This document shows, piece after piece, positions 13,715 through 46,288 of a DNA stretch of 64,000 nucleotides. Source of the DNA: Haloferula sp. BvORR071 (GTDB lineage: Bacteria > Verrucomicrobiota > Verrucomicrobiia > Verrucomicrobiales > Akkermansiaceae); NCBI RefSeq assembly GCF_000739615.1, contig NZ_BATP01000020.1, positions 124,001 to 188,000 on the forward strand, read 5' to 3'. Under the pieces are notes generated by a model that searched no databases, was not told the DNA's origin, and saw only the letters and a list, made by a program, of their open reading frames with translations. The position numbers were made by a program, and so were the translations under genes. The first letter of the stretch is position 1, and every line of letters starts with the position of its first letter.

Positions 13715-14178
13715 GTCCGCTCGATCCAGCGGCAGGGGAACTTTTCGACAACTGGACCGTCCAGATGCGCAAGGGCGTGCTCGACCTGTGCATCCTCAAG
13801 GCTCTCGCCAGTGGCGAATGCTATGGCTACGCGCTGGTGAAATCCCTGGTCGCCATCCCCGGCGTGGGCGTTGCGGAGGGCTCGATCTATCCCCTGCTTT
13901 CGCGCCTGAAAAAGCAGGGCCTGGTCTCCACCCGCTTGGAAGAATCCACGGAGGGCCCCGCCCGCAAGTACTACCGCCTCACCGCCGCGGGCAGCGCGCT
14001 CGCGACGGAGATGCAGGCCTATTTCGATGAGATGACCCGGGGAGTCTCCGGACTGGGGCAAAACGACGCTGGCGACAGCGATGGCAAGGTCACCCCCGGC
14101 AATTTCACCACTCCTTCACCGCCCCTTCCCAAAGAGCAGCCTGAACTGCGAGAACGCAAACCACCGATCCCCCGATGA
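13711..14178 (+). CDS. PadR-family transcriptional regulator
   Basis: The 155-residue protein has a winged-helix domain of the PadR type. Family signatures are MRKGVLDLCILKALASGECYGY (read as MRKGVLDLCILKAL then GECYGY), VAEGSIYPLLSRLKKQGLV for the recognition helix and wing, and GPARKYYRLTAAG. The C-terminal dimerisation part is short and followed by a Pro-rich tail. It overlaps the upstream paralogue by ATGA, and its stop overlaps the next ATG at 14175, so it is co-translated with the large VIT/PEP-CTERM protein. PadR proteins usually repress membrane or stress genes, often their own operon. Control of this operon is therefore the natural guess, although I see no operator. Confidence 0.9.
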   Translation: MSPLDPAAGELFDNWTVQMRKGVLDLCILKALASGECYGYALVKSLVAIPGVGVAEGSIYPLLSRLKKQGLVSTRLEESTEGPARKYYRLTAAGSALATEMQAYFDEMTRGVSGLGQNDAGDSDGKVTPGNFTTPSPPLPKEQPELRERKPPIPR

Positions 14179-16850
14179 AAACGTGGACCGAACCAGCCGA
14201 ACTACGATTGACGCAGTACCTTGCGGAGCGGGTCCAGCGCGAAGGCTTCAGCGGCGAGGAAGCGCTGGAGCTGCGTTCGGATCTGCTCAGCCACATCCAT
14301 GAGGAAGCGGAGAAGGATCGAGCGGAATCGATCGGCTTGATGCAGTTGGAGGCCATCCTTAGTCACCTTGATGCCGGTTATCTTCCGGAGCCTACGCCTC
14401 CCCTGTCGGTTCCAGCCCCCTACAACCCGCCGACGACGCCGGATCCCCAGATCCGCACTGGGGTGCCCATTTCGCACAAGCGTCCCTGGCAAACCAAGCG
14501 CTGGCTCTTTGGCGTGGCGGCACCGCTGGGTGTCACCATCTTCGAGGCCCTCATCCCCTTTTGCGGCAGCGTCTTCTTCGATCCCCTCGCCACCTGGTGG
14601 CATCTGCTGCTGGTCCTGACTGTGCCCGCGGTGAATGCTTGGCTGCTGCTCGGCGCGCCGCGTGGCTCGGAGCGCTGGAAGGGCATTGCGGTCGGCTTCG
14701 CACTGGTCATCGCGATTTTTTACGCGCTGCTCTTCCTGCCCCTGCTGCCAGCTTCGATCCTTGCCGTCGTCATGGCTGGACTCGGCCTGCTCTCGCTCAC
14801 GCCGATCATGGCTGGCATCGCCACCGCCAAGATCGCGATCAGCGCCGCGGATGATTCAGAGGACTTGGCGCGCTTCCGCAGCGGCCGCTGGACCGGCATC
14901 GCCGCCGCCCTGCTCGCCCTCTTCCTGTTAGAAGGTCCGGCCTTCTGGACCCGCAAGAATCTCGACATCGCCTCCGGCGAGGACAGCAAGCCGCGCCAGG
15001 CCGCGGTCGAGCGCTTGCGTTCCTTCCACTCGGAGCGCACCCTGCTGCTCGCTTGCTATGAGGGTAGCCGCGGCACCTCTCAGGGCACCGACATCTCCGG
15101 GTGGATCTGCAAAGGGTGGAAAAACATTGGCGATTCCTTCGCCGAGGACTTCGAGCGAGTCCGCCGGCCTGACTCCGATCGCACCCGCGATGTCTTCTTC
15201 CGCGTCACCGGCAAGCCCTTCAGCGAAGTGCAGCCGCCGCGCACGATACGCAGTGCAGTCTTCGGCATGGGCCGCGGCCGGGAATTCGAAGAGGTGGAGT
15301 TCGACAACCATCTGGGCGGTGACCAGGTCGCCGTGCGTGTGCGGAATCTCGATCTCGCCGAGTCGCGCTTCGATGGCCACGTGGATGCCCGCTCGCGGAT
15401 CGGCTACGGCGAGTGGACCATGGTCTTCAGGAACGAGGGCCGCGATGCCAAGGAAGCGCGCTGCCAGGTGCAGCTGCCGCAGGGTGGCCGCGTCTCGCGC
15501 CTGACCCTGTGGGTAAATGGCGAGCCGCGCGAGGCTGCGTTCAACTCGATCTCGAAGGTGAAGGCAGCCTACAAGGAAGTCGCGGTGGTCCAACGGCGCG
15601 ATCCGGTGCTGGTCACCATGTCCGGGCCGGATACCGTGCTAGTGCAGTGTTTCCCCGTTCCCGCGCATGGCGAGATGAAGATCCGCTTCGGCATCACCGC
15701 GCCGGTCGATGGTGAGCTCTGGGAACTCCCGCGAATTCTCGAACGCAACTTTGGCACCAGCGAAAGCCTGGAACACGCGGTCTGGCTGCAAGGCGACGGC
15801 GGCTTTGATCTGGTTGAGACCGGGGAGCAGGACCGCATCGCCCGTCGCGATGGAGAAGGCTACTCGCTCTCCGTCAGCCTCGATCCAAATGCCGCGATGG
15901 GCCGCATCACTGCGGTGCGCCTGAAGGCCAGGACCGAGATGGAGAAACCATTGTGGTGCGAGGACCAGTTCGCCTCGAATGACCAGCGCTACCTGATCCG
16001 CGAGCCTAGCGTCATCCGCAGGCCCGGCAGCAAACTGCTTCTTGTCGTCGATGCCTCCGCCGCGATGAGCGAGGCCAAGTCGTGGATCACCGAATCACTG
16101 GAGAAGAATTTCTCCGCAGGTGATTTCCGCATCCTCCTCGCCGATGACACGGCGCATGAAGTGAAGCTCGACGAACTCAAGCGCGCCGACTTCAGCGGCG
16201 GCCGCGACAACGAGCCCGCGCTGCGTGAGGCCGTGCGCCTCGCCAAGTCCGGCGAGGTCGATGAAATTATCTGGCTCCACGGCCCTCAAGCCGTCGGCCT
16301 CTCACAGGCGGAAGCCCTGATCCAGATCATCGAGCGCGGCACCCGCCACCCGGTGATCCACACCGTGATGGCCGCGAATGGTCCGAACCGCCTCGCCGAA
16401 GCCCTTCAACGCAGCGGCACCCTGCAACGCGGCCCTGTCCTGTTAGACACACACCGGGACTTCCCCGCCTTCCTCAAGGGCCTGATGGTCGAGCACGACG
16501 AGACCGCCTGGCACTGGAAGCGCAGCGCCCAGGTCCCCCCGGAAATGGGCAAGCCGGTCTGGAACCACCTCGCCCGCCAGTGGGCCATCGAGTCGGTCGA
16601 AACCCCGCGCTCCGAGATCTCGGAAAACGAGCGCCCTGCCCTCGCCGCCAAGTATCAACTGGTCACCAGTGTTTCCGGTGCGGTCGTGCTCGAGACCAAG
16701 GAGCAATACGAGAAGCACGGCCTCACCCCGGTCGATGCCAACGCCGCCCCGCAAATCCCCGGCGTCCCTGAAGCCTCGACCTCCCTGCTGCTCATGCTCA
16801 GCGCCAGCATGGGCCTTCTGCGCCGCAATCGCCGTAGCAAGGACTCGTAG
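14175..16850 (+). CDS. Multi-pass membrane protein with VIT and degenerate vWA-like regions and a PEP-CTERM-like end
   Basis: This 891-residue protein begins with a soluble helical segment (1-60) and a Pro-rich linker. About five membrane helices lie between residues 112 and 262, where two loops are short. The region at about 375-515 resembles a VIT domain (VAVRVRNLDLAESRFDG, GEWTMVFRNEGRDAKEARC). A vWA-like segment follows with DASAAMS at 626, where the metal-site DxSxS has lost its second Ser. The C-terminus has PEAS at 865-868, a hydrophobic helix and RRNRR, a PEP-CTERM-like exosortase signal. This matches the general plan of PEP-CTERM family integral membrane proteins of unknown function. 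It is translationally coupled to the PadR gene. Confidence 0.8.
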   Translation: MKTWTEPAELRLTQYLAERVQREGFSGEEALELRSDLLSHIHEEAEKDRAESIGLMQLEAILSHLDAGYLPEPTPPLSVPAPYNPPTTPDPQIRTGVPISHKRPWQTKRWLFGVAAPLGVTIFEALIPFCGSVFFDPLATWWHLLLVLTVPAVNAWLLLGAPRGSERWKGIAVGFALVIAIFYALLFLPLLPASILAVVMAGLGLLSLTPIMAGIATAKIAISAADDSEDLARFRSGRWTGIAAALLALFLLEGPAFWTRKNLDIASGEDSKPRQAAVERLRSFHSERTLLLACYEGSRGTSQGTDISGWICKGWKNIGDSFAEDFERVRRPDSDRTRDVFFRVTGKPFSEVQPPRTIRSAVFGMGRGREFEEVEFDNHLGGDQVAVRVRNLDLAESRFDGHVDARSRIGYGEWTMVFRNEGRDAKEARCQVQLPQGGRVSRLTLWVNGEPREAAFNSISKVKAAYKEVAVVQRRDPVLVTMSGPDTVLVQCFPVPAHGEMKIRFGITAPVDGELWELPRILERNFGTSESLEHAVWLQGDGGFDLVETGEQDRIARRDGEGYSLSVSLDPNAAMGRITAVRLKARTEMEKPLWCEDQFASNDQRYLIREPSVIRRPGSKLLLVVDASAAMSEAKSWITESLEKNFSAGDFRILLADDTAHEVKLDELKRADFSGGRDNEPALREAVRLAKSGEVDEIIWLHGPQAVGLSQAEALIQIIERGTRHPVIHTVMAANGPNRLAEALQRSGTLQRGPVLLDTHRDFPAFLKGLMVEHDETAWHWKRSAQVPPEMGKPVWNHLARQWAIESVETPRSEISENERPALAAKYQLVTSVSGAVVLETKEQYEKHGLTPVDANAAPQIPGVPEASTSLLLMLSASMGLLRRNRRSKDS

Positions 16851-33997: not shown

Positions 33998-34465
33998 ATC
34001 GCACCACCAACACGTGCCCCTATTTGAGCCACAGGTCTCTGGGAGTGCGGTGGGCATCGCCGCTTTCTGTGCGAAGCCTCGCCTCAGCACGCCACCCAAG
34101 TTCTAGGTGGATTCCCCCCACCTCGTGCCCGTCGCGACTGATTCCCAGTGATCGCTTGCTCCAGACCCTCCCCCGCTGCCGTCCTCCCTTAGGCTGAAGC
34201 TTCCGGGAACTCCCACGGCGGGCCGAGGCAACACGCGCCCAAAACGGGCGCACTTCCCAAAGCAGCAGCAGCGCCGCGCGTGGACCTCCCTGTGCCATTC
34301 GCTCCTTTCGTGGTGTCTCTCTGCCTTTGCCCTCCGCATTTCGCCCACCCGCACTAAACCTTCGCTTCCCTGCGATCCGTGTATTCCGTGGCTCATTTCC
34401 GGCTTTTTGCCTGGGCCTTAACCCACCTTGAAACAAGGCGAGCCCATCCCCGCGCCCCTTCTCAT
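33998..34465. other. Intergenic region upstream of the CotH-type protein gene
   Basis: This 468-base gap holds the right copy of the direct repeat (34042-34107). Further on, GTGTATTCCGTGG at about 34378 resembles GTGTATTCCGCGG at about 27150, beside the GCGAAA-rich repeat. The promoter of the CotH-type gene must lie here, but no consensus is clear. An in-frame ATG at 34379 would add 29 residues before the signal peptide; I prefer the later start. No small gene was seen. Confidence 0.45.
34042..34107. repeat. Right copy of the intergenic direct repeat
   Basis: This 66-base copy of the element at 30919-30985 is in the same orientation. GGAGTGCG, ATCGCCGCTTT, TGTGCG and the final 19-base block ACGCCACCCAAGTTCTAGG are conserved; the spacers between them differ. 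Together the two copies flank the coupled gene pair. Confidence 0.65.
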
Positions 34466-37400
34466 ATGCTCCGTTTCCCCGTCCCCCTGCCTTCTCCCGC
34501 TCGGGTCCTTCCTCTCTTGATCGCCTTGGCCGTCCTATGCTGCCTCGCCCCGTCGGCCCGCGCCTTCGACCCCGCCGACTACGGCCACGTCTCCCTGCAC
34601 CTCAAGGCAGACGCGCTCAACCAGGCGGACAATACCCCGGTGCTCAGCTGGGGCCCCTTGAGCGCCGGGGCCAATGAAACACCGGTCTTCACCGCCAGCG
34701 ACCCCCGCTTCAATGGCAAGCCCTCGGTTCACTTCGATGGCATCGACGACGTGATGAAGAGAACCGGCGCGAACTACCAAGCCCGCGCCATCTATGCCGT
34801 GGTCTGCTTGGAAAGTCCCACACCGGCCCTCGCCGGATTGCTGGGCACCGGGAACGACAAGCTGAACATCCGGCGCAACGACTCGACCAGCTTCTATCGT
34901 TCGGCCGGTCACAACGTGGACTCGAATGACTTCGTCGGCAATGGTCCCGTGACCGGCACGCTCTATGTGAATATGACCTCCGCCGGTGCCTACACCACCG
35001 GGGCCGCCCATCTGGTCCGGGCCTTCGCCGGCAGTGACAAGATCTACGAGAACTTCTGGATGGGTAGCCCCTACAGCGGCGCCAATCGCCTTTGGAAGGG
35101 CAGCGTCGCGGAGATCATCGTCTTCCAGGACCAGATGACCACGGAAGCGATGGACCAAGTAAACTGGTATCTCCAGCAGAAGTACAACCTGCCCACCACC
35201 TTCCAGACTCCGGCCCCCGACACCAAGCTGAAGGCGACGGCCGGTAGCATCAGCTCCACCCGCGGCCTGCTCTCCACTGCCGGCGCCCCCGTCACGCTGA
35301 GCTGGGAAACCGAGCGCGCCACCACCCTCTCGGTCAATCAGGGAGTGCAGTCGTCCACCGCGGTTGCCAGCGGTTCGGCTACGGTTTCGCCGACGCAGAC
35401 CACCACCTACACGCTCACCGCGCAAAACTCCACCGGCAGCACCGCCAAGACGGTCACGATCTACATCGGCACCACCGCACAAGCGGCAGTGCTGAATGAA
35501 TTCCTCGCCAGCAACGGTGGCGGACTGACGGATGAGGATGGCGACAGCGGCGACTGGATCGAGATCTTCAACCCGAATCCCTTCGCGATCGATTTGGCCG
35601 GCTATCGCCTCCAGGACTCCGCCAATACCTGGGACTTCCCCGCGCAGTCCGCGATCGAGGCTAGCAGCTATCGCATCGTCTTCGCTTCCTCCAAGAATCG
35701 CACAAATCCAGCCGGCAACCTGCACACGAATTTCAGCCTGAGTGCCGATGGTGAGTACCTCGCGCTGAAGACTCCGCAAGGCGCCATCGCCACCGCCTTC
35801 GCCCCGGCTTACCCGCCGCAGCGGCAAAACCTCTCCGCGGGCTTGTCTAACAACCTCATCGCATTCTACGCGGACCCGACCCCCGGGGCCGCGAATGGCA
35901 CAGCCTCGGCAGGCCTCACGGATGATGTCTACTTCTCGATGCCGCACGGCCTCTACGAATCCGGCTTCCCCTTGGAGCTTTCCTGCATCACCAGCGGCTC
36001 GGTCATCCGCTACACCACGGATGCCAGCACCCCGACGGAAACCAGCGCCGCGTACACCGGCCCGCTCGATATCTCAAGCACCCGCACCATCCGGGCCCGC
36101 GCCTTCCGCAGCGGCTACCTGCCCTCGCCCGTGGTCACCCAGAGCTATATTTTGCTGAATGACGTACTGGCGAACCAGATCTATGCCACCGGCACCGCCC
36201 CCGCCGGATGGCCCGCCGGCACCGTCAATGGCCAGCAATTCCGCTACGGCTGGAACACCACGCTCAAGACGCAATACACCAACCAGCAACTGCTGGACGG
36301 TCTCAAGCAGCTTCCCAGTGTCTCGCTGGTCACAGATCAGGAGAACCTCACCTCCTCGGCAACTGGCATCTATGTCAATGCCGACCAGAAGGGCTCCCTG
36401 TGGGAGCGCCCCGCCTCCTTCGAGTTCATGCCCGCGGATGGCAGCGATGGCTTCCAGATCAATGCCGGCCTGCGCATCCGCGGAGGTGCCAGCCGCGGCG
36501 ATGGCTTCGTCAGGCACGGCTTCCGCCTTTTCTTCCGCGGCGGCTATGGCGATTCCAAGCTCACCTATCCCCTGCACGGCACATCCGGCACCGATCAATT
36601 CGATACCCTCGATCTGCGCACCGAGCAGAACTACCACTGGTCGAATTCCTCCGATGTGCAGAACACGGCCACACACGAAGTCTTCGCCCGCGACTTGATG
36701 GGAGCCACCGGCCAGGCCTCCACCCGCACGCAGTCCTTCCACCTCTATCTGAATGGCCAATACTGGGGCATCTATCAGACCGAGGAACGCGCCCAGGAAG
36801 ATTACGGTGCCACCTACTTCGGCGGACGTTCAGATGACTACGATGTAATCCAAACCTCCAGCCACCCCGCCCTGACCTACGAAGTCTCCAGCGGCCAACT
36901 CGACGCCTGGAGCACCATGTGGAACCTTGCCCGCGCCCACGCGGCAAATCCCACCGATGCGAATTACTTCGCCCTCAGCGGACGCAACGCGAACGGCGTG
37001 CGGAATCCCGCGATGCCCGTGTACGTGGACATCGACAACCTCATCACCTACATGCTGGTGATCTTCTACATCGGCGATGGCGACGCACCGCTGATCAACA
37101 GTCGCGGCTGCAACATCGCCAACAACTGGCGCGGCCTCCGCAACCGCTCCGCCAGCGATGGCTTCCGCTTCTTCGTCCACGACTCGGAGCATTCGATGAA
37201 GACCTCCCTCTTCGTGGAGGACCGGGTCAATACAGCCGCCCCCACTGCCAGCAACCGCCCGAACTTCACCTACTCCAATCCGGAGTGGATCCACGAGGAC
37301 CTCAGCGCCAGCCCCGAGTACCGCATCCGCTTTGCGGACATCATCCAGAAGCATCTCTTCAATGGTGGAGCAATCACGCCCTCTGCCGCGCAGGCACTCT

Positions 37401-38803
37401 TCGATGCGCGCGCGGGACAGATCTCCCAGGCGATCGTCGCGGATGCGGCCCGCTGGGGCACGAATGCCACCAACCACACCCTGGCCCAGTGGCAAGCGCG
37501 CCTGAATTACTTGCGCAGCAATTTCTTCGCCACCCGCACCTACAACCTCATCACTCACCTGCGGACGCGTGGCTTGTTCCCCTCGGTAAATGCGCCGCTC
37601 TTCTCGCAGCGCGGCGGTTCGGTGGCACCCGGCTACCTGCTCTCGCTGTCCACCGGCGGCCAGACCGGCACGATCTACTACACGCTGGATGGCAGCGATC
37701 CACGTGCCGTGGGTGGCGCTATCGCCGGCAGCACTTACGCCAGCCCCGGCATTCCGATCAATGGGCTGGTCAAGGTAAGGGCGCGCTTCCGCAGCAGCAC
37801 CGGCGTGTGGTCGGCCTTGGATGAGGCCAGCCTCATCGGGGCCCTGCCCGCAGCTACTGGAGATATCGTAGTCAGCAAGATCCACTACCACCCAGACAAC
37901 CCGAGCGAAGCGGAACAGGCCGCAGGCTTCGATTCCGATGCCGACTTCGAATATGTCGAGCTAATGAACATCTCCTCACAGACGCTGGACATTTCGGCAC
38001 TGGCCTTCAAGACGGGCATCGAGTTCAGCTTTGCCGGCTCGGAGATCCCGGTGCTTGCGCCGGGCGGGCGGGTGCTGGTGGCGGGAAATGCCGCGGCGCT
38101 GCAATTCCGTTACGGCCCCGGCCTGCCGATCGCCGGCAGCTTCAGCGGAGATCTCAGCAACGGCGGCGAGACCCTGCGCCTGGAAGGCACCGGCGCTGCG
38201 GTGATCAAACAATTCTTCTACGACGATATCGCGCCATGGCCCGTGACTCCGGACGGCGGTGGCTTCGTGCTGGTCCTGAAGAGTCCGGCGGACAATCCGG
38301 ATCACGCACTGGGCACCAGCTGGCGCGCCAGCTTCAGCCGCGGCGGCAAGCCCGGCACTGCCGACACACTCGATCCGCAGACTTGGCGCGGGCTGAACTT
38401 CAGCGCAACCGACCTGGCCGATCCTGCCAAGGAAGCCAGCTTGTGGGGCAACAACGCGGATCCCGACGGCGATGGCATGGTGAACCTCATCGAGATGATC
38501 ACCGGCAGCTCGCCCTTGGACTCGAAGTCCCGGCCTGCACCTGAGCTTTCCTGGTGGACCGATCCGGCGACCGAGGCAAGGTACCTAACACTAAGCCTGC
38601 GGATCCTCCGCGACCTGAGCGGAGTGCAAATCACCGCCAAGGCCTCAAACGATCTGCTGTCCTGGCCGGACACCCTCTCATCGACCGGCCCCGCCGTGTC
38701 ACAAGCTGACGGCACCGCCATCCTCAGCTTCCGCGATCCCCTTCCCGTGGGGCAAGGCCCCGCAGCCCAGCGCTTCGTGAGGATCGTTGTGACGGAGCCG
38801 TGA
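34466..38803 (+). CDS. Large secreted CotH-kinase-domain protein with LamG, lamin-tail and chitobiase-like domains
   Basis: The 1445-residue protein starts at the ATG at 34466, which directly precedes a signal peptide (LPLLIALAVLCCLAPSARA). In order it has a LamG-like domain (about 35-245), an Ig-like segment (to 340), a lamin-tail domain (VLNEFLASNGGG, WIEIFNPNPFAIDLAGYRL, about 341-485), and a chitobiase C-terminal-like domain (VIRYTTDASTPTETSAAYTG). The CotH kinase-like core runs from about 610 to 1040 (LRIRGGASRGDGFVRHGFRL, YWGIYQTEERAQEDY, FRFFVHDSEHSM). A second chitobiase-like (IYYTLDGSDPR) and a second lamin-tail domain follow. The end carries DPDGDGMVNLIEMITG and a beta-rich tail. 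CotH enzymes phosphorylate proteins; the target here is unknown. Confidence 0.88.
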   Translation: MLRFPVPLPSPARVLPLLIALAVLCCLAPSARAFDPADYGHVSLHLKADALNQADNTPVLSWGPLSAGANETPVFTASDPRFNGKPSVHFDGIDDVMKRTGANYQARAIYAVVCLESPTPALAGLLGTGNDKLNIRRNDSTSFYRSAGHNVDSNDFVGNGPVTGTLYVNMTSAGAYTTGAAHLVRAFAGSDKIYENFWMGSPYSGANRLWKGSVAEIIVFQDQMTTEAMDQVNWYLQQKYNLPTTFQTPAPDTKLKATAGSISSTRGLLSTAGAPVTLSWETERATTLSVNQGVQSSTAVASGSATVSPTQTTTYTLTAQNSTGSTAKTVTIYIGTTAQAAVLNEFLASNGGGLTDEDGDSGDWIEIFNPNPFAIDLAGYRLQDSANTWDFPAQSAIEASSYRIVFASSKNRTNPAGNLHTNFSLSADGEYLALKTPQGAIATAFAPAYPPQRQNLSAGLSNNLIAFYADPTPGAANGTASAGLTDDVYFSMPHGLYESGFPLELSCITSGSVIRYTTDASTPTETSAAYTGPLDISSTRTIRARAFRSGYLPSPVVTQSYILLNDVLANQIYATGTAPAGWPAGTVNGQQFRYGWNTTLKTQYTNQQLLDGLKQLPSVSLVTDQENLTSSATGIYVNADQKGSLWERPASFEFMPADGSDGFQINAGLRIRGGASRGDGFVRHGFRLFFRGGYGDSKLTYPLHGTSGTDQFDTLDLRTEQNYHWSNSSDVQNTATHEVFARDLMGATGQASTRTQSFHLYLNGQYWGIYQTEERAQEDYGATYFGGRSDDYDVIQTSSHPALTYEVSSGQLDAWSTMWNLARAHAANPTDANYFALSGRNANGVRNPAMPVYVDIDNLITYMLVIFYIGDGDAPLINSRGCNIANNWRGLRNRSASDGFRFFVHDSEHSMKTSLFVEDRVNTAAPTASNRPNFTYSNPEWIHEDLSASPEYRIRFADIIQKHLFNGGAITPSAAQALFDARAGQISQAIVADAARWGTNATNHTLAQWQARLNYLRSNFFATRTYNLITHLRTRGLFPSVNAPLFSQRGGSVAPGYLLSLSTGGQTGTIYYTLDGSDPRAVGGAIAGSTYASPGIPINGLVKVRARFRSSTGVWSALDEASLIGALPAATGDIVVSKIHYHPDNPSEAEQAAGFDSDADFEYVELMNISSQTLDISALAFKTGIEFSFAGSEIPVLAPGGRVLVAGNAAALQFRYGPGLPIAGSFSGDLSNGGETLRLEGTGAAVIKQFFYDDIAPWPVTPDGGGFVLVLKSPADNPDHALGTSWRASFSRGGKPGTADTLDPQTWRGLNFSATDLADPAKEASLWGNNADPDGDGMVNLIEMITGSSPLDSKSRPAPELSWWTDPATEARYLTLSLRILRDLSGVQITAKASNDLLSWPDTLSSTGPAVSQADGTAILSFRDPLPVGQGPAAQRFVRIVVTEP

Positions 38804-39232
38804 TCACGGCCAAGACCCCGGCCGTGGATGGAGTCAACGCTGCGTGAATTCATTCACGCGGCAGGCTCTATCGGAGAGCACGCGGGCATCGCGCGTGTTC
38901 CTGCGATATTTCCACCAAGGATCGGGAACTCCGGTAGGCATCGTACAACCGTGCAAGTTGCCTCAAACCCCTCCACCGAGCACTCCCTCCGCCTTCCACT
39001 TTAGGTGTAGCGGAAGAATGACGCATTGACCCTGAAACCGAAGGCCCCCTTCCTGCGGATGGATAAGAACGCCCGATTGCTTCGAATTCACGGAACTCCC
39101 TCATCCTGAAAATTTTTCGCGAAATCTGCCAAGAAACCGAATGCCCGCCCGACTTGCTTGGTGAAATCGACGGAACATGGAGCTGAGGACCCGCAGCCCC
39201 TCCCGCGATTTCGATATCACGACTGCTCCTCA
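38804..39232. other. Intergenic region with a hairpin after the CotH-type gene
   Basis: Bases 38806-38827 can form CACGGCC/GGCCGTG with an 8-base loop right after the stop, a possible terminator without a T-tract. The rest of this 429-base gap shows no convincing gene; open frames on both strands lack protein-like composition. Its right part should hold the promoter of the next secreted-protein gene, with AT-rich DNA at about 39105-39130, but no consensus stands out. Confidence 0.4.
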
Positions 39233-39910
39233 ATGAAGAAATCCATCATCATCCCGCTCCTTGGTTTGCTCGGCACTGCTGCGGCACATGCACAAGCCGC
39301 CCCCAAGCCGGGATCCATCTCGCCTCTTCTCTTCGAAGCGACCATCACCACCGAAAACGCGCCGCAAGACCAGAACCTGCCACAGGGTTCCAAGCGCCGC
39401 ACCTTCACCGTGAACTCCGTGCGCTTGGTCAATCGCGACATCCTGGAGGCCATGCGCACCGCGCCGCTTCTCGATGGCACGATCACCGGCTGGAGCATCG
39501 CCCGCGTGGCGGATGCAAATGGCGTCGGCAACCTCTACGCCATCAAGGCCGGCAAGACTGCCGTGGCCGTGCCCGCCAACCTGCTCAGTCAGCCGGTGGC
39601 TCAAGGCACCGCCACCACCGGTAGCTCGATCATCCCGGCCACCGGCCCGGCACGCCCGAACCTGATCCGCAAGACCTACGCCACCATGGCGGTCAAGCAA
39701 GGCTCCAGCACCGCCGCCGGCACGCAGACGATCAAGTTCGGCACGCTCAAGATTGGCACCACCAATCACGTGATCCAGACGCAGATCGATAACTTCAATA
39801 TCACCGGCGATAGCTTCACCGGCCAAGGCATCATCGCCGGCACCTATCGCACGCAGCGTCCCGCCTTGGGCAACCTCATCGCCCTCTTCCCCGGCGCCAC
39901 GGTTCCCTAA
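39233..39910 (+). CDS. Secreted protein of unknown function
   Basis: The 225-residue protein has a signal peptide (MKKSIIIPLLGLLGTAAAHAQA) at the ATG at 39233. The mature part is Thr/Gly/Ala-rich and beta-like, with TFTVNSVRLVNRDILEAM, GWSIARVADANGVGNLYAIKAG and NHVIQTQIDNFNITGDSFTGQGIIAG (shown as IDNFNITGDSFTGQGI). No recognised domain, lipobox or sorting tail is visible. It precedes the anchored-protein/sigma/anti-sigma unit by 130 bases on the same strand. Confidence 0.7.
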   Translation: MKKSIIIPLLGLLGTAAAHAQAAPKPGSISPLLFEATITTENAPQDQNLPQGSKRRTFTVNSVRLVNRDILEAMRTAPLLDGTITGWSIARVADANGVGNLYAIKAGKTAVAVPANLLSQPVAQGTATTGSSIIPATGPARPNLIRKTYATMAVKQGSSTAAGTQTIKFGTLKIGTTNHVIQTQIDNFNITGDSFTGQGIIAGTYRTQRPALGNLIALFPGATVP

Positions 39911-40040
39911 CAGCCTCATTCGTTTCCTCCTCCACCACCCGCCCCGCCGCCCCTCTCCTCTGGGACCGGCGGGGCCCCTTGCTCCTCTTCCTCCCGATCT
40001 TGGCCACTGCACTTCTCCAATGACTTCTCCGCTTACCCCT

Positions 40041-40565
40041 ATGAAAAGACTGTTTCTCCTTCTCGGTCTCGCTGCATGGGTCGCCCTGATCGTGCTCCTT
40101 CCTCCCAAGGGCCATGACGACAACTCCAAGGCTTCTTCTTCCGCTCCCCAAAGCCTGAAGACTGCGCGCAGCAATCGCACCGCCCCCTCTAAGACGGACG
40201 CAGTCGCGCAAAAGGAAGAGGATGATGCGAAGCCAGCAAGCCTCGACGAACGCCGCGAGGATGCCCACACCATCATCGATGCCGCCGTGGTCACCTACTC
40301 GCCGGAAGGCGTGAAGGCGATCCGCCCCTTCCTTCTCGATACGGATGCCGAGATCCGCGCCGCCGCCCGTGATGGCATGGTCCAGCTCGGCGAAGCCGAT
40401 GCCGTCCCGCTCCTGCGCGACGCCGCCTCGAAGCTGAAGGACACCACGGAGATCGCTTCCCTCCAGGAAGCCGCCGATCTGCTGGCCCTGCCCGCATGGT
40501 CGGACACTCCCGAGGCTGCGGCAGTGGTCGCGGATATCCGCGCTGGGATGGAACAAGAGCAGTGA
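40041..40565 (+). CDS. Small anchored protein with HEAT-like helices, coupled to a sigma factor
   Basis: The 174-residue protein starts at the ATG at 40041 with a membrane anchor (MKRLFLLLGLAAWVALIVLL). A charged linker follows (to about residue 70). The last ~100 residues resemble HEAT/armadillo helices (VKAIRPFLLDTDAEIRAAARDGMVQLGEADAVPLLRDAASKL, read in parts such as DTDAEIRAAARDGMVQLG). Its TGA overlaps the GTG of the sigma factor gene (GTGA), so the two are co-translated. That places a probable envelope sensor or scaffold in the sigma operon. The sensor idea is inference from position. Confidence 0.7.
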   Translation: MKRLFLLLGLAAWVALIVLLPPKGHDDNSKASSSAPQSLKTARSNRTAPSKTDAVAQKEEDDAKPASLDERREDAHTIIDAAVVTYSPEGVKAIRPFLLDTDAEIRAAARDGMVQLGEADAVPLLRDAASKLKDTTEIASLQEAADLLALPAWSDTPEAAAVVADIRAGMEQEQ

Positions 40566-41098
40566 AGGGCGCAGTGAACGAAGCAAGGTCCATCGAGCCG
40601 TCCGGCAATTGGTTGGCAGAGGTTCTCGTCCGCTACGAGAAGCCTCTCCTCAAGCACGCCTATGGCCTGTGCTCCGACCGAGAACTCTCACGCGATGCGG
40701 TGCAGGAAACTTTTTTCCGCCTGATCCGCACCCGCGAAAAAGGGATGCCGGAAAACATCACCGCCTGGCTCTTCACCGTCTGCCGCAACGTGCTCACCGA
40801 TCACATGCGCCGTCAGAAGGTCGTGCAATTCGGCTGGGACCTCCCCGACGTGGAAGACGATTCCGACTCTCCAATCCATCAGCTCGCCAAGGGTGAACGC
40901 GAGGAAAAGCTCGCCGCCATGGTTGCCGAGCTCCCCGAGCGCGAGCGCGAACTGGTCCGCCTGAAATTCCAAGTCGGCCTCAGCTACAAGGAGATCGAGG
41001 AACTCACCGGCATCTCCCAAGGCAACATCGGCTACTTTCTCCACAAGGCGGTGAAGGAGCTCAAGGACCGCTGGCAGCGCGAAGGAGGTGAAGGATGA
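40562..41098 (+). CDS. ECF-type RNA polymerase sigma factor
   Basis: The 178-residue protein has the two-domain sigma-70 ECF layout. Region 2 is visible as YGLCSDRELSRDAVQETFFRLI and ENITAWLFTVCRNVLTDHMRRQ, and region 4 as ELPERERELVRLKFQVGLSYKEIEELTGIS plus NIGYFLHKAVKELKDRW (each quoted only in part). The preferred start is the GTG at 40562, which overlaps the previous stop; an in-frame ATG at 40496 would read through that gene. The stop overlaps the next ATG (ATGA), and the next gene has a strong Shine-Dalgarno sequence inside this frame. Such pairs usually encode a sigma factor and its inhibitor. Confidence 0.9.
   Translation: MKGAVNEARSIEPSGNWLAEVLVRYEKPLLKHAYGLCSDRELSRDAVQETFFRLIRTREKGMPENITAWLFTVCRNVLTDHMRRQKVVQFGWDLPDVEDDSDSPIHQLAKGEREEKLAAMVAELPERERELVRLKFQVGLSYKEIEELTGISQGNIGYFLHKAVKELKDRWQREGGEG
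41082..41089 (+). promoter_or_regulatory. Strong ribosome-binding site for the probable anti-sigma gene
   Basis: AAGGAGGT sits five bases before the ATG at 41095, inside the last codons of the sigma gene. Most genes in this window have no clear Shine-Dalgarno sequence, so this one stands out. It supports separate, efficient translation of the downstream partner. Confidence 0.75.
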
Positions 41099-42132
41099 GC
41101 CCGAGCGATCCCTTCGAAGATTTCCTGGAAGACGCGCTCGGCGCTCCCGACTTCGAACTCGGGCACGAAATGCGCCGCCGCCTGCTCGCGGCCGCCGTCG
41201 CCGGCGATACAGCCGCAGTGACTTGCGACAATGTGGTCCCCATGGATCGCGCCGACCCCGATGCCGCCGCCGGTTTCGCATGGCTGGTCGGCGAGGCCCC
41301 GGCTTCCACCGCCCTGATGTCCCGCATGGCAGCGGACCATACTTTTCTGGAGACGCTCGACAGCGAGCGCTGCTTCCTCCGCACGCTCCGTGCCGCGCTC
41401 CGGCGCAGTGCCGCGGCGGCAGTCCCCGCCCCTGCCCGGCGCTCTTGGGTCCCGGCGGCGGCCATGTCCGCCGCCGCTGTCCTCGCCTTGGCCGCTGGGG
41501 CGATCTTCTGGAGCCCCGGTAGCCAGCCCGCCACCGCGACAGCCGTGGCCGCGGCGGAACCGGCCCTCGACCGGGCCTCTTCGGCCCCCGACCCCGGCCT
41601 TTTTTCCGCGGAAAAGCCGGCCCTTATCTCCAGTGCGACCCCTGATTCCGGAGACTCCGGAGCGTCTGCCGCTGGCGGCGCTGCCTCCCTCCCGGAAGCT
41701 GAACTCGCCGGCCTGAAGTTGCCCGCGCACCCCGAGCCACAAGGCACCGGACGCTCCGTCGCGCTCGACGATCCTTTGCTGGAAGCCGTTCAGCCGCTGG
41801 GATCCGCCCTCGCATTCGCGGCCAAGGACGAAGTCCTGCCTGAGCCGATGCTCGCAATGCTCGGCGGTGGCCTGAACGATAGCGGCAGCGGAATCGGGAT
41901 GGATTCTTCGTCCGAGGGTATGCTCGCATCCCTCTCAGGGAACTCCATGCACTCCTTCACGGGCGGCATGGGCAGCATCGGTGGTGGCGGACTCCCGAAT
42001 GGCGCTGCCCTGATCGGTAGCACCGGTCCCACTGGCGGCAAGGAGGGCACGATTCCGGAGCCTGGTGGCGCCCTGCCGGTCATGATCGGCTTCCTGATTC
42101 TGCTCCTCCGCCGGCCGGCACGGCAGGGGTAA
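41095..42132 (+). CDS. Probable anti-sigma membrane protein with a C-terminal PEP-CTERM signal
   Basis: The 345-residue protein overlaps the sigma gene by ATGA. Residues 1-115 are soluble and probably cytoplasmic, as in anti-sigma factors, but the zinc HxxxCxxC motif is absent, so this role rests on position. One membrane helix lies at about 121-139. A long Ser/Gly/Ala-rich region follows and should be outside. The end (about 319-345) reads IPEPGGALPVMIGFLILLLRRPAR: a PEP motif, a hydrophobic helix and a basic cluster, which is the exosortase recognition signal. Two anchors with an exosortase site in the second are unusual for an anti-sigma protein. No exosortase gene is in the window. Confidence 0.75.
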   Translation: MSPSDPFEDFLEDALGAPDFELGHEMRRRLLAAAVAGDTAAVTCDNVVPMDRADPDAAAGFAWLVGEAPASTALMSRMAADHTFLETLDSERCFLRTLRAALRRSAAAAVPAPARRSWVPAAAMSAAAVLALAAGAIFWSPGSQPATATAVAAAEPALDRASSAPDPGLFSAEKPALISSATPDSGDSGASAAGGAASLPEAELAGLKLPAHPEPQGTGRSVALDDPLLEAVQPLGSALAFAAKDEVLPEPMLAMLGGGLNDSGSGIGMDSSSEGMLASLSGNSMHSFTGGMGSIGGGGLPNGAALIGSTGPTGGKEGTIPEPGGALPVMIGFLILLLRRPARQG

Positions 42133-42153
42133 GTGAGGCAAGGCGGCCCCGCA

Positions 42154-42319
42154 AACCCTTGTTGCATAAGGGTTCTACGACCTAACACCGCTTGCAGCGC
42201 CTGGGAATCCTTTATCCCACAAGGGCTCAGCGCCCCCTTGGGGAAATCTATCAGCTGCGATCCCTTGTGCCACAAGGGATCTACGGGGTCGCGTAGGAGC
42301 GCCTCACGCGATTGCGTGA
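42154..42319. repeat. Cluster of short palindromes between two genes
   Basis: Three clear hairpins occur: AACCCTT/AAGGGTT at 42154-42174; ATCCCTTGTG/CACAAGGGAT around a single C at 42260-42280, a perfect 10-base stem; and TCACGC/GCGTGA at 42304-42319. A partial match to the second, CCCACAAGGG, lies at about 42216-42225. The recurring CCCTTGT/ACAAGGG core suggests REP-like elements or repeated protein-binding sites. A related CCACAAGG and CCTTTGTG pair occurs at about 49558-49581. Confidence 0.55.
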
Positions 42320-42387
42320 TGCACGGTAATTCAGAAACGTGAATAGTGAGGGGCGTCAAAGGTTACTCACTCTCACTTCTCCACCCC

Positions 42388-43146
42388 ATGACCACTCAAG
42401 AGCGCATCAACCAGCTGACCAACGCTGCCCTTCGTTCCGCCCCGCCGTCCGCCACCGCACCGAAGCCGGTGACCTACATGCCGTCCTTCGACGAGCTGAA
42501 GGGCGTCCAATACTCCAGCAACCCGGCTGCCGCTCCCGCCGCCAAGGCCGCTCCCGCAGCGCCGATCGCTGTTGCCGCTCCTGTTTCCTCTCCCGCCCCC
42601 GCCGCTGCTCCGGCTCCCGCCGCCCCAGTCCTTACCGTGGTCAAGGATGTCCACGAAAGCGATCCGGAGCTGAAGGATATGCTGGATTCCCGCGATGGCA
42701 GCCGCAAGAAGCGCGAGAAGCGCAACAACCGCCTGGCCACCGCCGCCCTGCTGCTCCTCGTCGTCTCCGGCGGTAGCTGGCTGACCTTCTCGCCCACGGC
42801 CCGGGCCAAGATGAACACCCTCGTCACCGCCGTGAAACAAAGCGGCAAGGACGTAAAGTCCCTCGGCTCGATCATGGGCACCTACGAGAAGCAGCTCGAC
42901 AAGGTCGCCGTCCAAGGCGCCCGCGTGGATGCCGCCGCTCTGGCCCTGGGCGTGGATCCCAAGGGCGATGCCTCCGCCCAGGACGCGTCCATCGCCGCCG
43001 GCATGAAGGACCTGACCGGTGAAGGCGGCGGACCGACCGTCCAAGAGCGCGATGCCAAGCTTCAGCAGAAATTCGGCGTCGTCAGCAAGCTGGCCAAGGG
43101 CATGGCTCCCAAGACCCAGAAGGCCGAGTCTGACGTGCAGTTCTAA
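42388..43146 (+). CDS. Single-pass membrane protein with an N-terminal module shared with a nearby small gene
   Basis: The 252-residue protein starts at the ATG at 42388 (MTTQERINQLTNAALRSAPP). Residues 1-34 match the start of the protein at 43670 at 25 of 34 positions. An Ala/Pro-rich linker (about 45-82) follows, then a short acidic/basic stretch (KKREKRNN), a membrane helix (about 116-134) and a helical C-terminal domain (about 135-252), probably on the far side. No family is recognised. The upstream in-frame ATG at 42346 adds no conserved sequence. The conserved start suggests a docking or targeting role. Confidence 0.7.
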   Translation: MTTQERINQLTNAALRSAPPSATAPKPVTYMPSFDELKGVQYSSNPAAAPAAKAAPAAPIAVAAPVSSPAPAAAPAPAAPVLTVVKDVHESDPELKDMLDSRDGSRKKREKRNNRLATAALLLLVVSGGSWLTFSPTARAKMNTLVTAVKQSGKDVKSLGSIMGTYEKQLDKVAVQGARVDAAALALGVDPKGDASAQDASIAAGMKDLTGEGGGPTVQERDAKLQQKFGVVSKLAKGMAPKTQKAESDVQF

Positions 43147-43669
43147 GCGGATCCGCGAATCCGCCCGGAAGCAGGCCCTCTCATCCTGTCCCTTTCCGTC
43201 CTCTCCCATTTTCTCCCCTGTTCGATTTTCCCCTTTCGCAGCTTTTGCTGGCGTCGTCCGCCCGGACCTTCTCAACCCGGGCAGATGAACTCTCACCGCC
43301 AGTCGGAGCGCTCGCGTCTCTCCCCTAGGAACACTTTTACCCCGGAGTCCAGACTGTCGTAGTCCCGGCAGTCCACCCACGCCCCAGCACCGCGGCATCG
43401 TTTGTCCGCCTGCCCTACCCCGCCATGCCCGGTCCCGACTGACCGGCCTGGCACCACCTGACAAGGGAAGCGGCATGCCTTGCCCCGAGGTGCGCACACC
43501 TGCCCAGCCAACCCCCGGCTGGTCCGGTGTGCCCCCTTCCCGAGGCCCGCAAGTCCTTGCGCACCACTGCACAAGCTACGCAATCCCGTGGGTTGTTCCA
43601 CGCGAAGGCGTAATACCGGTAGGGGTCGTTTTCTGAATAATGGTCATCGTTACAAGCTTCTACCTGACC
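43147..43669. other. Intergenic region between the two genes with matching N-termini
   Basis: This 523-base gap has a strongly pyrimidine-rich plus strand at about 43170-43240 and a C-rich, G-poor stretch at about 43355-43550. I found no gene with convincing composition on either strand and no clear terminator. A structured RNA cannot be excluded but was not recognised. Promoter elements for the 75-residue protein probably lie near its 3' end. Confidence 0.35.
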
Positions 43670-43897
43670 ATGAGCATTCAAGAACGAGTCAACGAACTGG
43701 CCAACGCAGCTCTCCGCTCCGCCCCTCCTTCCGCCGGTATTCCGAAGCCCGCCACCTTCATGCCTTCCTTCGAGCAAATGCGCAGCGCGGACTCCACCGC
43801 CGCGAAGCCTGCCGTCCAAGTGCCGGCACAACGCATCAGCATCGCACTGAATGCCTTCGATCTGGCTTTCGCTTCCGCCACTCCCGGCCAAGGCTGA
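43670..43897 (+). CDS. 75-residue protein, N-terminal match to the membrane protein at 42388
   Basis: The ATG at 43670 gives MSIQERVNELANAALRSAPP followed by SAGIPKPATFMPSF, aligned without gaps to residues 1-34 of the protein at 42388. The similarity ends there: no linker or membrane helix follows, and the last ~35 residues (VPAQRISIALNAFDLAFAS) look amphipathic. It could be a truncated duplicate or a soluble partner carrying the same docking module. Conservation of the protein sequence despite third-base differences argues that it is translated. An in-frame ATG at 43640 is less likely because the match begins at 43670. Confidence 0.6.
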   Translation: MSIQERVNELANAALRSAPPSAGIPKPATFMPSFEQMRSADSTAAKPAVQVPAQRISIALNAFDLAFASATPGQG

Positions 43898-44635: not shown

Positions 44636-46288
44636 CTACTTCCCGAAGAGTTCTTCGCGGAGGAGTGGCTTGTTGGATTCGCTGTCCCAATAGGCGAAAC
44701 CGGCTTTCCAGTCCCACATGGTCCAAGGGATCTTGCGGTGCTCGGTGGCGGTGCGGAAGTCGCGGATATAGCGCTTGCGGCTGGCGGGATCGGCATTGCG
44801 GACCGCGCCGAATTCGCCGGCGTGGATGGGGCGGCCGAAACGGGCGGACCATGCCATGGCATCATCCAGCAGATCCTCGATGACGCGGCTACTGCAAGGG
44901 TTGTCCTTGCCCTTGGCGGTATTGTAGTCCTTCAGCCATGCGGCGATACCGGCATTCTCACGGAGGGATTCCGGGATTGCCACGGGGACCGCGGGCGGGC
45001 CGGGGTACGAGATTCCCCGTAGGTCCTGGTAGCCGACCCAAGCCGCGCCCTGGTGGGTGAATTGGAAGGGTTCGTAGCTGTGGATGGTGACGATGATGCG
45101 GTCGTCGTTGTCCGGCAGGAAGAAGCGGTCGAGTCCCGCGACGCCAGCCCACTGCGGCGGATCCGCGAGCAGGATGCGCTTGGAATCTATCCCGCGGATC
45201 GCGGCGATGGCTTCGGCATGGACGGAGGTGAGAACCTCATGATCGAGTGCGCCGTTGGGCTCGTTGGCGAGTTCGAGGTAGAGCTGCGGTGGCCAGTCCT
45301 TGAAGTGCTTGGCGATGACTTGCCAGCCGGAGGCGAAGGCTTGGCGCGCGGCCTGCGGGTCCTTGTAGAGCTCCTCGAAGTGCTGCCAGTTCACGATCAC
45401 CGAGAGCTTCTTTTCCAGCGCGTGCTTGAGCAGGGCATCAAGATCCGTGATGAAGTCCGGCTTGATCGCGCCGTTCTCGAGGTAGTACTGCCATGCGATC
45501 GGAACGCGGATGTGGTCGAAACCCTCGGCGGCGATGCGATCGATGTCGGTCAGGTCATACTTCACGCCCCAGGTGCCGGGCGCGGCTTCCCAGCCATTGC
45601 CGAGATTCACGCCGCGCTTGAGGGCGGCGCAGGCTTTGTGCGCGGGGGTGTCATGGCCCAGGTTTGCGGGTGCCTTGAAGCCGGGCGTCACCGCAGCGCG
45701 GGCGTAGAACTTGAGTGTCACTGGCAGGCCGGACTTAACCGACAGCTTGGCGATGAGCGGGCGCCCATGCCAGGAGGCACCGCAGGACTTGCCCTGGCGG
45801 GCCTCATTGCCGGGTGCCAGTGGCCAAGTCCCGGCGATAGGATAGGGTCGCCATGGTGACTCCCAGTTCTGCGGTTTGCCGTCGCTGCCGCTCAGCTCGA
45901 AGCCACCATTCTGGACCTCCGAGCCCGTGGCGGAGAAATCATCCCAGAGGATTTCTTGCTGATAGAGTTGTCCGGGCTTCGCCTCCGCCCAGGGGCCGTT
46001 CAGGTCGAGTTCCACGCTGCCATCGTGACCCGGTGTGAACTTCAGCGTGAACTCGCGCCAGTCCCACCAGCGGACGGGAAAGCGAATGTCGCTCAGGCGC
46101 TCGCGTTTCTCCGGCGTGTCCTCGAAGTCGCCGCGGGAGATTTCACCTTGGGAGATGGTGACATCGCGGAGGGGGGCGGCATCTGCAGGCACGCGGAGGA
46201 ACATACGGGCCTCCGCGGGCATGCGGGGGACGAATTCTTCCTCCGCGTGGAGCGGGAGAAGCAGGGCGAGAGGGAGCAGGAAACGCAT
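44636..46288 (-). CDS. Secreted glycoside hydrolase family 5 (cellulase-like) enzyme
   Basis: The 550-residue protein has a signal peptide (MRFLLPLALLLPLHA). Residues about 20-205 form a beta-rich carbohydrate-binding-like part (FELSGSDGKPQNW, LTLKFYARAAV). The catalytic TIM barrel follows: KRGVNLGNGWEA, HIRVPIAWQYYL, LELANEPNG with the acid/base Glu at 343, VTIHSYEPFQFTHQG, and HAGEFGAVR with the nucleophile Glu at 492. The last conserved Trp region is WTMWDWKAGFAYWD. It should cut beta-1,4-linked glucan, mannan or similar chains with retention; the exact substrate is unknown. It is transcribed alone, leftward. Confidence 0.93.
   Translation of the reverse strand: MRFLLPLALLLPLHAEEEFVPRMPAEARMFLRVPADAAPLRDVTISQGEISRGDFEDTPEKRERLSDIRFPVRWWDWREFTLKFTPGHDGSVELDLNGPWAEAKPGQLYQQEILWDDFSATGSEVQNGGFELSGSDGKPQNWESPWRPYPIAGTWPLAPGNEARQGKSCGASWHGRPLIAKLSVKSGLPVTLKFYARAAVTPGFKAPANLGHDTPAHKACAALKRGVNLGNGWEAAPGTWGVKYDLTDIDRIAAEGFDHIRVPIAWQYYLENGAIKPDFITDLDALLKHALEKKLSVIVNWQHFEELYKDPQAARQAFASGWQVIAKHFKDWPPQLYLELANEPNGALDHEVLTSVHAEAIAAIRGIDSKRILLADPPQWAGVAGLDRFFLPDNDDRIIVTIHSYEPFQFTHQGAAWVGYQDLRGISYPGPPAVPVAIPESLRENAGIAAWLKDYNTAKGKDNPCSSRVIEDLLDDAMAWSARFGRPIHAGEFGAVRNADPASRKRYIRDFRTATEHRKIPWTMWDWKAGFAYWDSESNKPLLREELFGK

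Follow-up and report, generated by a model that had tools for sequence, protein, structure and literature searches.

Does a putative anti-sigma factor at this locus carry an exosortase sorting signal at its far end, and if so, what would such a tail contribute to the control of the sigma factor? The locus lies in a 64,000 bp stretch of the Haloferula sp. BvORR071 genome, referred to here as the window, and consists of four genes in tandem behind a putative promoter:

39129..39157, forward strand: putative ECF-type promoter, CCAAGAAA-N13-CGACTTGC, upstream of gene 1
39233..39910, forward strand: gene 1, encoding a 225-residue protein with a signal-like N-terminus (judged by eye)
40020..40565, forward strand: gene 2, encoding a signal-anchor protein with HEAT-like repeats (PF13646 HEAT_2, E 7.1e-6)
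40562..41098, forward strand: gene 3, encoding an ECF sigma factor (TIGR02937, E 1.8e-25; PF04542 and PF08281)
41084..41088, forward strand: Shine-Dalgarno sequence GGAGG of gene 4, read from the sequence
41095..42132, forward strand: gene 4, an open reading frame encoding the 345-residue anti-sigma-like protein P0001

Related loci were found with the sigma factor in three sets of genomes: 18 from the genus, 386 from the order (an even sample of a larger group) and 260 from the family. The family search returned 15 loci in 14 of 260 genomes at E <=1e-65, and their sigma factors form two supported clades, A (8 loci, support 100/99) and B (7 loci, 99/96), the clade B sigma factors being related at 51.7-55.8% identity. 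Clade A comprises our own locus (G000) and those of G003, G010 and G005 within the genus, together with G251, G285, G325 and G404 in a second genus; G325 and G404 are near-identical and carry scarcely more weight than a single observation. G005, locus L038 and contig JAQGPE010000476.1 share one clade A protein, and G005 and L038 are counted once. In the sigma tree, clades A and B and two rows labelled VWA (a label read by eye from translations) join at 90/74 under a long-branch warning, and because the order among them is not fixed, clade B is treated as a near paralogue and not as a proven sister. That A and B are paralogues follows from the presence of both in G005, unless that 61% complete genome is mixed. 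A search for viral relatives of P0001 gave 12 pattern matches, none of them confirmed, and the 24 plasmid records related to the sigma factor are every one below 60% identity.

The identity of the sigma factor upstream of P0001 is firm, with Sigma70_r2 and r4_2 domains in Pfam; its gene begins at GTG 40562, overlapping the stop codon of gene 2, or at an alternative GTG at 40574. The ATG of P0001 (41095) overlaps the sigma stop codon TGA (41096-41098) and is preceded by AAGGAGGT. A preliminary description of this DNA had claimed an ATGA overlap and a strong Shine-Dalgarno sequence linking the two genes, and the relatives bear this out: the start-stop overlap recurs at 14/14 loci of the two clades that were examined closely, our own among them, and purine-rich sites also precede the start codons of the relatives' coupled reading frames. 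For P0001 itself, NCBIfam gives no match and Pfam a single one, to a DUF at E 8.7. The protein divides into the following parts:

41260..41409, forward strand: zinc-less W..GE helical domain, presumed to bind the sigma factor (residues 56-105; AlphaFold2 helices)
41449..41505, forward strand: central membrane helix (residues 119-137; hydropathy peak 1.98)
41512..42042, forward strand: poorly conserved Ala/Ser/Gly/Pro-rich linker (residues 140-316; identity 0.17)
42052..42129, forward strand: PEP-CTERM-type tail, IPEPGGALPVMIGFLILLLRRPARQG (residues 320-345; P321, E322, P323 and R340 invariant)

In the N-terminal part, AlphaFold2 places helices at residues 55-65, 72-80 and 82-108, in a block with pLDDT of 86-98. 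A short helical F...L motif and the W..GE helices are common to both clades, with F7, L11, W63, G66 and E67 invariant in 14/14 clade A and B sequences, and comparison of the clade A and clade B N-terminal profiles gave E 3.9e-5 and a probability of 70.5, against probabilities of at most 4.2 for 60 column-shuffled controls. VWA-type anti-sigma-like proteins from other families of the same order match the clade B domain with their N-terminus (probability 97.8); the clade A profile set directly against VWA-type and other anti-sigma factors of the order gives weak matches (43.0 and 28.9) that align a different stretch. All seven clade B N-termini match the NCBIfam anti-sigma models NF052375 and/or PRK13920 at E <=0.53 (best 6.8e-7, all below cut-off). 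Among the seven clade A members scanned, NF052375 matches one (E 0.0048; 16.9 bits vs a cut-off of 100) over residues 100-172, off the W..GE helices, and the other six have no match to an NCBIfam anti-sigma model at E <=1. P0001 has no match to the Pfam FecR domain (E <=10, with filters that drop most matches above ~0.1). Structural comparison returned three Foldseek matches (best E 7.1) and no significant fold relative; the best VIA-align row, 7y4r_E at Z 5.1, lies within that tool's common range, no solved structure matching significantly, and the N-terminal profile found two PDB sequences, at best E 0.17. On reading, P0001 lacks HxxxCxxC, the motif of zinc anti-sigma (ZAS) factors. The preliminary description was correct about this absence; its suggestion of a new anti-sigma class is not supported in that form, in view of the profile match to paralogues that themselves weakly match anti-sigma models. 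To judge from sequence comparison, the soluble part of P0001 seems to be a W..GE helical domain, zinc-less and diverged, that it has in common with clade B, and not a new class. In other families of the order, at loci L164-L182, the gene after the sigma relative encodes an anti-sigma-like protein with a comparable W..(G/D)E helix; a VWA-like LVFLVDVSGSM is reached in 5 of the 19 printed translations, most others end at the locus border, and L167 is complete without it (by eye).

The membrane helix named in the preliminary description is confirmed as the hydropathy maximum of P0001, and a maximum lies near this position in 7/7 clade A proteins tested. No N-terminal signal peptide is found in P0001, the strongest hydrophobic segment being this helix, which lies after the soluble N-terminus. 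Beyond it, the linker reaches a hydropathy of at most 0.92 (windows starting at residues 146-299) and has no family match in Pfam or NCBIfam, and a second peak of 1.77 begins at residue 320 (19-residue Kyte-Doolittle). The C-terminal sequence there, TIPEPGGALPVMIGFLILLLRRPARQG, consists of IPEPG, a hydrophobic stretch and RR.

Whether this end is a PEP-CTERM signal was addressed by profile search, as the preliminary description had proposed, with a divided outcome: P0001 itself matches neither PF07589 nor TIGR02595, and its relative in G010 passes the TIGR02595 cut-off (21.6 bits vs 16). The relatives in G325 and G251 reach 15.8 and 11.8 bits, and the own, G003, G005 and G285 proteins have no TIGR02595 match at E <=1 (seven members scanned, G404 not among them); at this threshold TIGR02595 is found in 3/7 and PF07589 in 2/7 clade A members. 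P0001 is not among the 53 PF07589 matches of its own genome (E <=1), 39 of which are above cut-off. We also built a tail model from 29 PEP-CTERM tails of the genome encoding P0001, drawn from 30 loci, of which L152 contributed no tail and L128 nothing beyond repeats of L125. On this model the P0001 tail scores 6.8 bits, equalled or bettered by 3/1000 shuffled tails, which is weak in isolation. The G003 tail scores 10.7 bits (0/1000 shuffles), that of G010 29.0 bits (0 of 717 scored shuffles) and that of G005 -0.6 bits (37/1000 shuffles), the last sequence continuing beyond the basic cluster. Within the window a loose PEP-tail pattern occurs in 3/411 open frames of at least 80 residues, of which the two besides P0001, at 84 and 83 residues, appear to be spurious frames.

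The stronger evidence comes from conservation. In all eight clade A loci the coupled reading frame ends in (I/V)PEP(G/S) followed by a hydrophobic stretch and a terminus that contains Arg, and the invariance of P321, E322, P323 and R340 holds in 7/7 aligned proteins, with PEP also present in the eighth locus. Mean pairwise identity in the seven aligned proteins is 0.52 for the tail vs 0.17 for the linker, with 0.55 for the N-terminal helices and 0.43 for the W..GE domain. Codon differences tell the same story, with synonymous/non-synonymous counts in tail and linker, respectively, of 8/4 and 40/103 (G000-G003), 7/6 and 26/81 (G251-G285), 9/11 and 29/112 (G000-G010) and 9/11 and 27/108 (G003-G010). 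As a control by reading, 0/7 complete sigma-coupled reading frames outside the two clades end in a PEP tail (L018, L019, L020, L027, L028, L032 and L167; other such frames run into the locus end). The preliminary description had named non-conservation of the PEP signal in homologues as the finding that would count against it; PEP is kept in all seven other clade A loci. Its claim of a PEP-CTERM-pattern end (IPEPG...RR) is thus upheld through the relatives, in 8/8 loci and with G010 above the curated cut-off, and we call the end of P0001 PEP-CTERM-type because these relatives conserve it, its own tail taken alone making a weak case. With 53 PF07589 matches and 71 first-look sigma candidates in the genome, chance adjacency of a PEP tail and a sigma gene is possible for one neighbour, and is unlikely as the whole story because the tail is kept at all eight loci in two genera.

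Comparison with clade B gave an unexpected result: an exosortase-type tail and an outer-membrane barrel are exchanged at the ends of these anti-sigma-like proteins. The clade B coupled proteins (650-721 aa) resemble P0001 in their related sigma factor, start-stop overlap, W..GE domain, helix and linker, and in a promoter-like block described below, and differ in lacking a PEP tail and ending instead in an autotransporter barrel. A C-terminal PF03797 barrel is found in 7/7 of them (E 1.4e-15 to 1.1e-22), with F as the last residue, and is absent from P0001 and from the seven clade A members scanned (E <=1). Barrel and PEP tail hold the same position, after the helix and linker. One N-terminal domain thus seems to have been combined with different outer modules, the one in clade A being a PEP-CTERM-type tail, and the barrel at the tail position suggests that in both clades the proper place of the outer end is in or at the outer membrane.

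The partner of such a tail is available. The genome encoding P0001 has two PF09721 matches, one above and the other below the TIGR02602 cut-off, and an exosortase is present in 18/18 genomes of the genus and in 3/3 tested of the four in the second genus (21/21 tested). We rejected a division into clade A genomes with and clade B genomes without exosortase, given its presence in all 18 genomes of the genus. Elsewhere in the window, an 891-residue protein (14175-16850, forward strand) bears a weak likeness to the XrtN-system VIT protein (TIGR04477, 94.2 bits vs a cut-off of 250) and has a PEP-CTERM-like end, VPEASTSLLLMLSASMGLLRRNRRSKDS, scoring 15.5 bits with TIGR02595 (cut-off 16) and 19.8 bits with PF07589.

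The four genes recur as a cassette. The order gene 1, HEAT protein, sigma factor and P0001 is kept at 7/7 clade A loci whose flanking sequence is long enough (our own counted, G404 not), where both gene 1 and gene 2 give tblastn matches. Gene 1 has no NCBIfam match and a poor structure model (pLDDT 49), and the HEAT_2 score of gene 2 (26.7 bits) is under the cut-off of 27.7. Neither gene has a match at the seven clade B loci, one of which (L118) offers only ~0.65 kb of upstream sequence. An 8-base -35 block starting CCAAG, 13 bases and a -10 block starting CG are found in 14/14 regions, and also upstream in G404; the site lies ahead of gene 1 in clade A and ahead of the sigma gene in clade B, where the -35 block and 13-base spacer are as in clade A and the -10 block is CGTCATGC in 6/7 and CGTAATGC in G006. 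Because these 14 regions served both to derive the expression and to count it, the corresponding shuffle figure (mean 0.005 of 14) overstates its independence.

In the 7.8 Mb genome encoding P0001, the cassette is the only exact match of the motif. At <=2 mismatches there are 16 sites (1 exact, 1 with one mismatch) vs 8 for the reversed pattern, and a wider regulon in this genome was rejected as mostly chance on these counts. The single one-mismatch site (L187/L215; C51:23685-23713, reverse strand) lies 86 bases before a gene for a 2939-residue protein with a signal-like start, which is a possible second target of the sigma factor or a chance match. In six clade A genomes, 36 sites occur at <=1 mismatch vs 14 for the reversed pattern; the four that match exactly belong to the cassettes of G003, G005, G251 and G325, the cassette sites of G010 and G285 have one mismatch, and one of the other 30 corresponds to the promoter of the clade B sigma gene in G005. 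The clade B motif, searched at <=1 mismatch in six clade B genomes, gives 13 matches vs 2 reversed. Nine of the 13 are exact; five of these stand before the sigma gene, and the remaining four precede a gene for a secreted protein with EF-hand-like motifs. The latter proteins (L204, L205, L206 and L212, in G006, G007, G011 and G008, respectively) are encoded no more than a few kb downstream of the anti-sigma genes of clade B, and a Pfam EF-hand is confirmed for that of G007 only. Two related small proteins with signal-like starts (143 and 142 aa; L208 in G009 C4 and L214 in G007 C8) have a one-mismatch clade B motif ahead of them. From these motif positions we infer that the sigma factors regulate their own genes and control small regulons that include a secreted product.

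The account we favour, at about even odds, makes P0001 an anti-sigma factor that passes its outer end to a delivery route of the outer envelope, with control of the sigma factor depending on that attachment. Its N-terminal helices would hold the ECF sigma factor in the cytoplasm, its single helix would span the inner membrane and its ~180-residue linker would traverse the periplasm, the PEP-CTERM-type tail passing the far end to exosortase, which would cut off the tail and attach the P0001 end, or deliver it in the direction of the outer membrane or the cell surface; the counterpart route in clade B would presumably be BAM. With the outer end attached, P0001 would be stable and the sigma factor held; with that end unsorted, detached or cut, P0001 would be degraded through the stepwise proteolysis usual for anti-sigma factors, and the freed sigma factor would activate its own four-gene cassette, including the gene 1 protein with its signal-like N-terminus. 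We infer sigma binding, tail processing, promoter activity and the direction of the switch. A broader proposal, more tentative and in our judgement rather less than an even prospect, is that both clades are one-chain, envelope-spanning sigma switches in which an outer-envelope delivery route (exosortase for clade A, BAM/autotransporter for clade B) handles the far end of the anti-sigma factor as its client, so that the cell would read the state of the route or of the outer surface through delivery of the tail.

Parts of this arrangement have precedents. P0001 resembles the PEP-CTERM/exosortase sorting system, as set out by Haft et al. (2006, PMC1569441), in having PEP, a hydrophobic stretch and a basic cluster in a genome with exosortase genes; it differs from the proteins described there in having no signal peptide and in its cytoplasmic domain, internal helix and coupling to an ECF sigma factor. 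In that same account, 97% of PEP-CTERM proteins had a signal peptide on re-analysis, and none had a membrane helix between signal peptide and PEP tail, one three-member family excepted; as a PEP-CTERM protein P0001 would be an unusual client. FecR and FoxR are likewise membrane-bound anti-sigma factors of ECF sigma factors, and their C-terminal end meets an outer-membrane receptor, contact with which protects the anti-sigma factor from proteolysis in the case of FoxR (PMC11637429); that receptor is a separate TonB-dependent protein, whereas the outer module of P0001 is in the same chain. In NlpE-Cpx a client of a sorting route similarly reports on the route, the lipoprotein NlpE on its own trafficking (PMC6538781); it differs in relying on a lipoprotein, a two-component system and separate proteins. 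In PorA-PorXY-SigP of type IX secretion (PMC7712824), an ECF sigma factor receives input from a protein that bears a C-terminal sorting domain; PorA differs in not being the anti-sigma factor and in working via a two-component system.

The simplest competing account makes P0001 an ordinary membrane anti-sigma factor whose C-terminal end is a second inner-membrane anchor, with PEP incidental and no action of exosortase. The failure of PF07589 and TIGR02595 to recognise its tail, the weak scores of the own and G005 tails, and the lack of an N-terminal signal peptide, which nearly every PEP-CTERM protein in PMC1569441 has, speak for it, and we consider it unlikely while giving it real weight. Such an anchor would have no use for PEP, yet PEP is invariant in 7/7 proteins beside a linker at 0.17 identity and is kept in the eighth locus, G010 exceeds the curated cut-off, and the paralogues carry an outer-membrane barrel where the tail lies.

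Two further accounts keep the exosortase and alter what it does. P0001 might be no regulator at all, and instead a surface protein that carries an internal signal anchor and is sorted by exosortase, a target of the sigma factor in its operon like gene 1, which also stands in the operon behind the same promoter motif; the lack of an NCBIfam anti-sigma match in 6/7 members (E <=1) fits this. The overlap with the sigma gene at 14/14 loci, the conserved N-terminal helical domain and the profile match to paralogue N-termini that themselves weakly match anti-sigma models argue otherwise, and make the idea improbable. Or the sign could be opposite, exosortase cleavage being the first cut of anti-sigma proteolysis and sorting turning the sigma factor on. 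Here the tail would be where exosortase acts (on the model in PMC1569441), and it is the conserved one among the compared regions beyond the membrane helix; however, it is not obvious that loss of ~20 residues from the distal end of a 180-residue linker would act as a trigger, and the barrel paralogues have the same layout without a PEP tail. We judge this version very improbable. If the attachment-dependent anti-sigma reading is right, it would link regulation directly to outer-envelope delivery, in a small testable module of four genes and one promoter with an internal comparison of PEP tail and barrel. To our knowledge, little has been described of the signals that reach ECF sigma factors in Verrucomicrobiota or of the roles of exosortases beyond surface proteins, and our literature search (subscription journals and preprints lying outside it) showed, among the papers listed, no case of an anti-sigma factor with a PEP-CTERM tail.

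The cassette is flanked by genes for a CotH-kinase/lamin-tail-domain protein (34379-38803, forward strand) and a GH5 cellulase-like protein (44636-46288, reverse strand). Between P0001 and the next gene (42150-42310 of the window) are short repeat-like stretches, including the palindrome-like ATCCCTTGTGCCACAAGGGAT. Two related genes follow (42346-43146 and 43640-43897, forward strand) whose products share M(T/S)(T/I)QER(I/V)N(Q/E)L(T/A)NAALRSAPPSA, and matches to them lie downstream of the cassette in G003 and G010.
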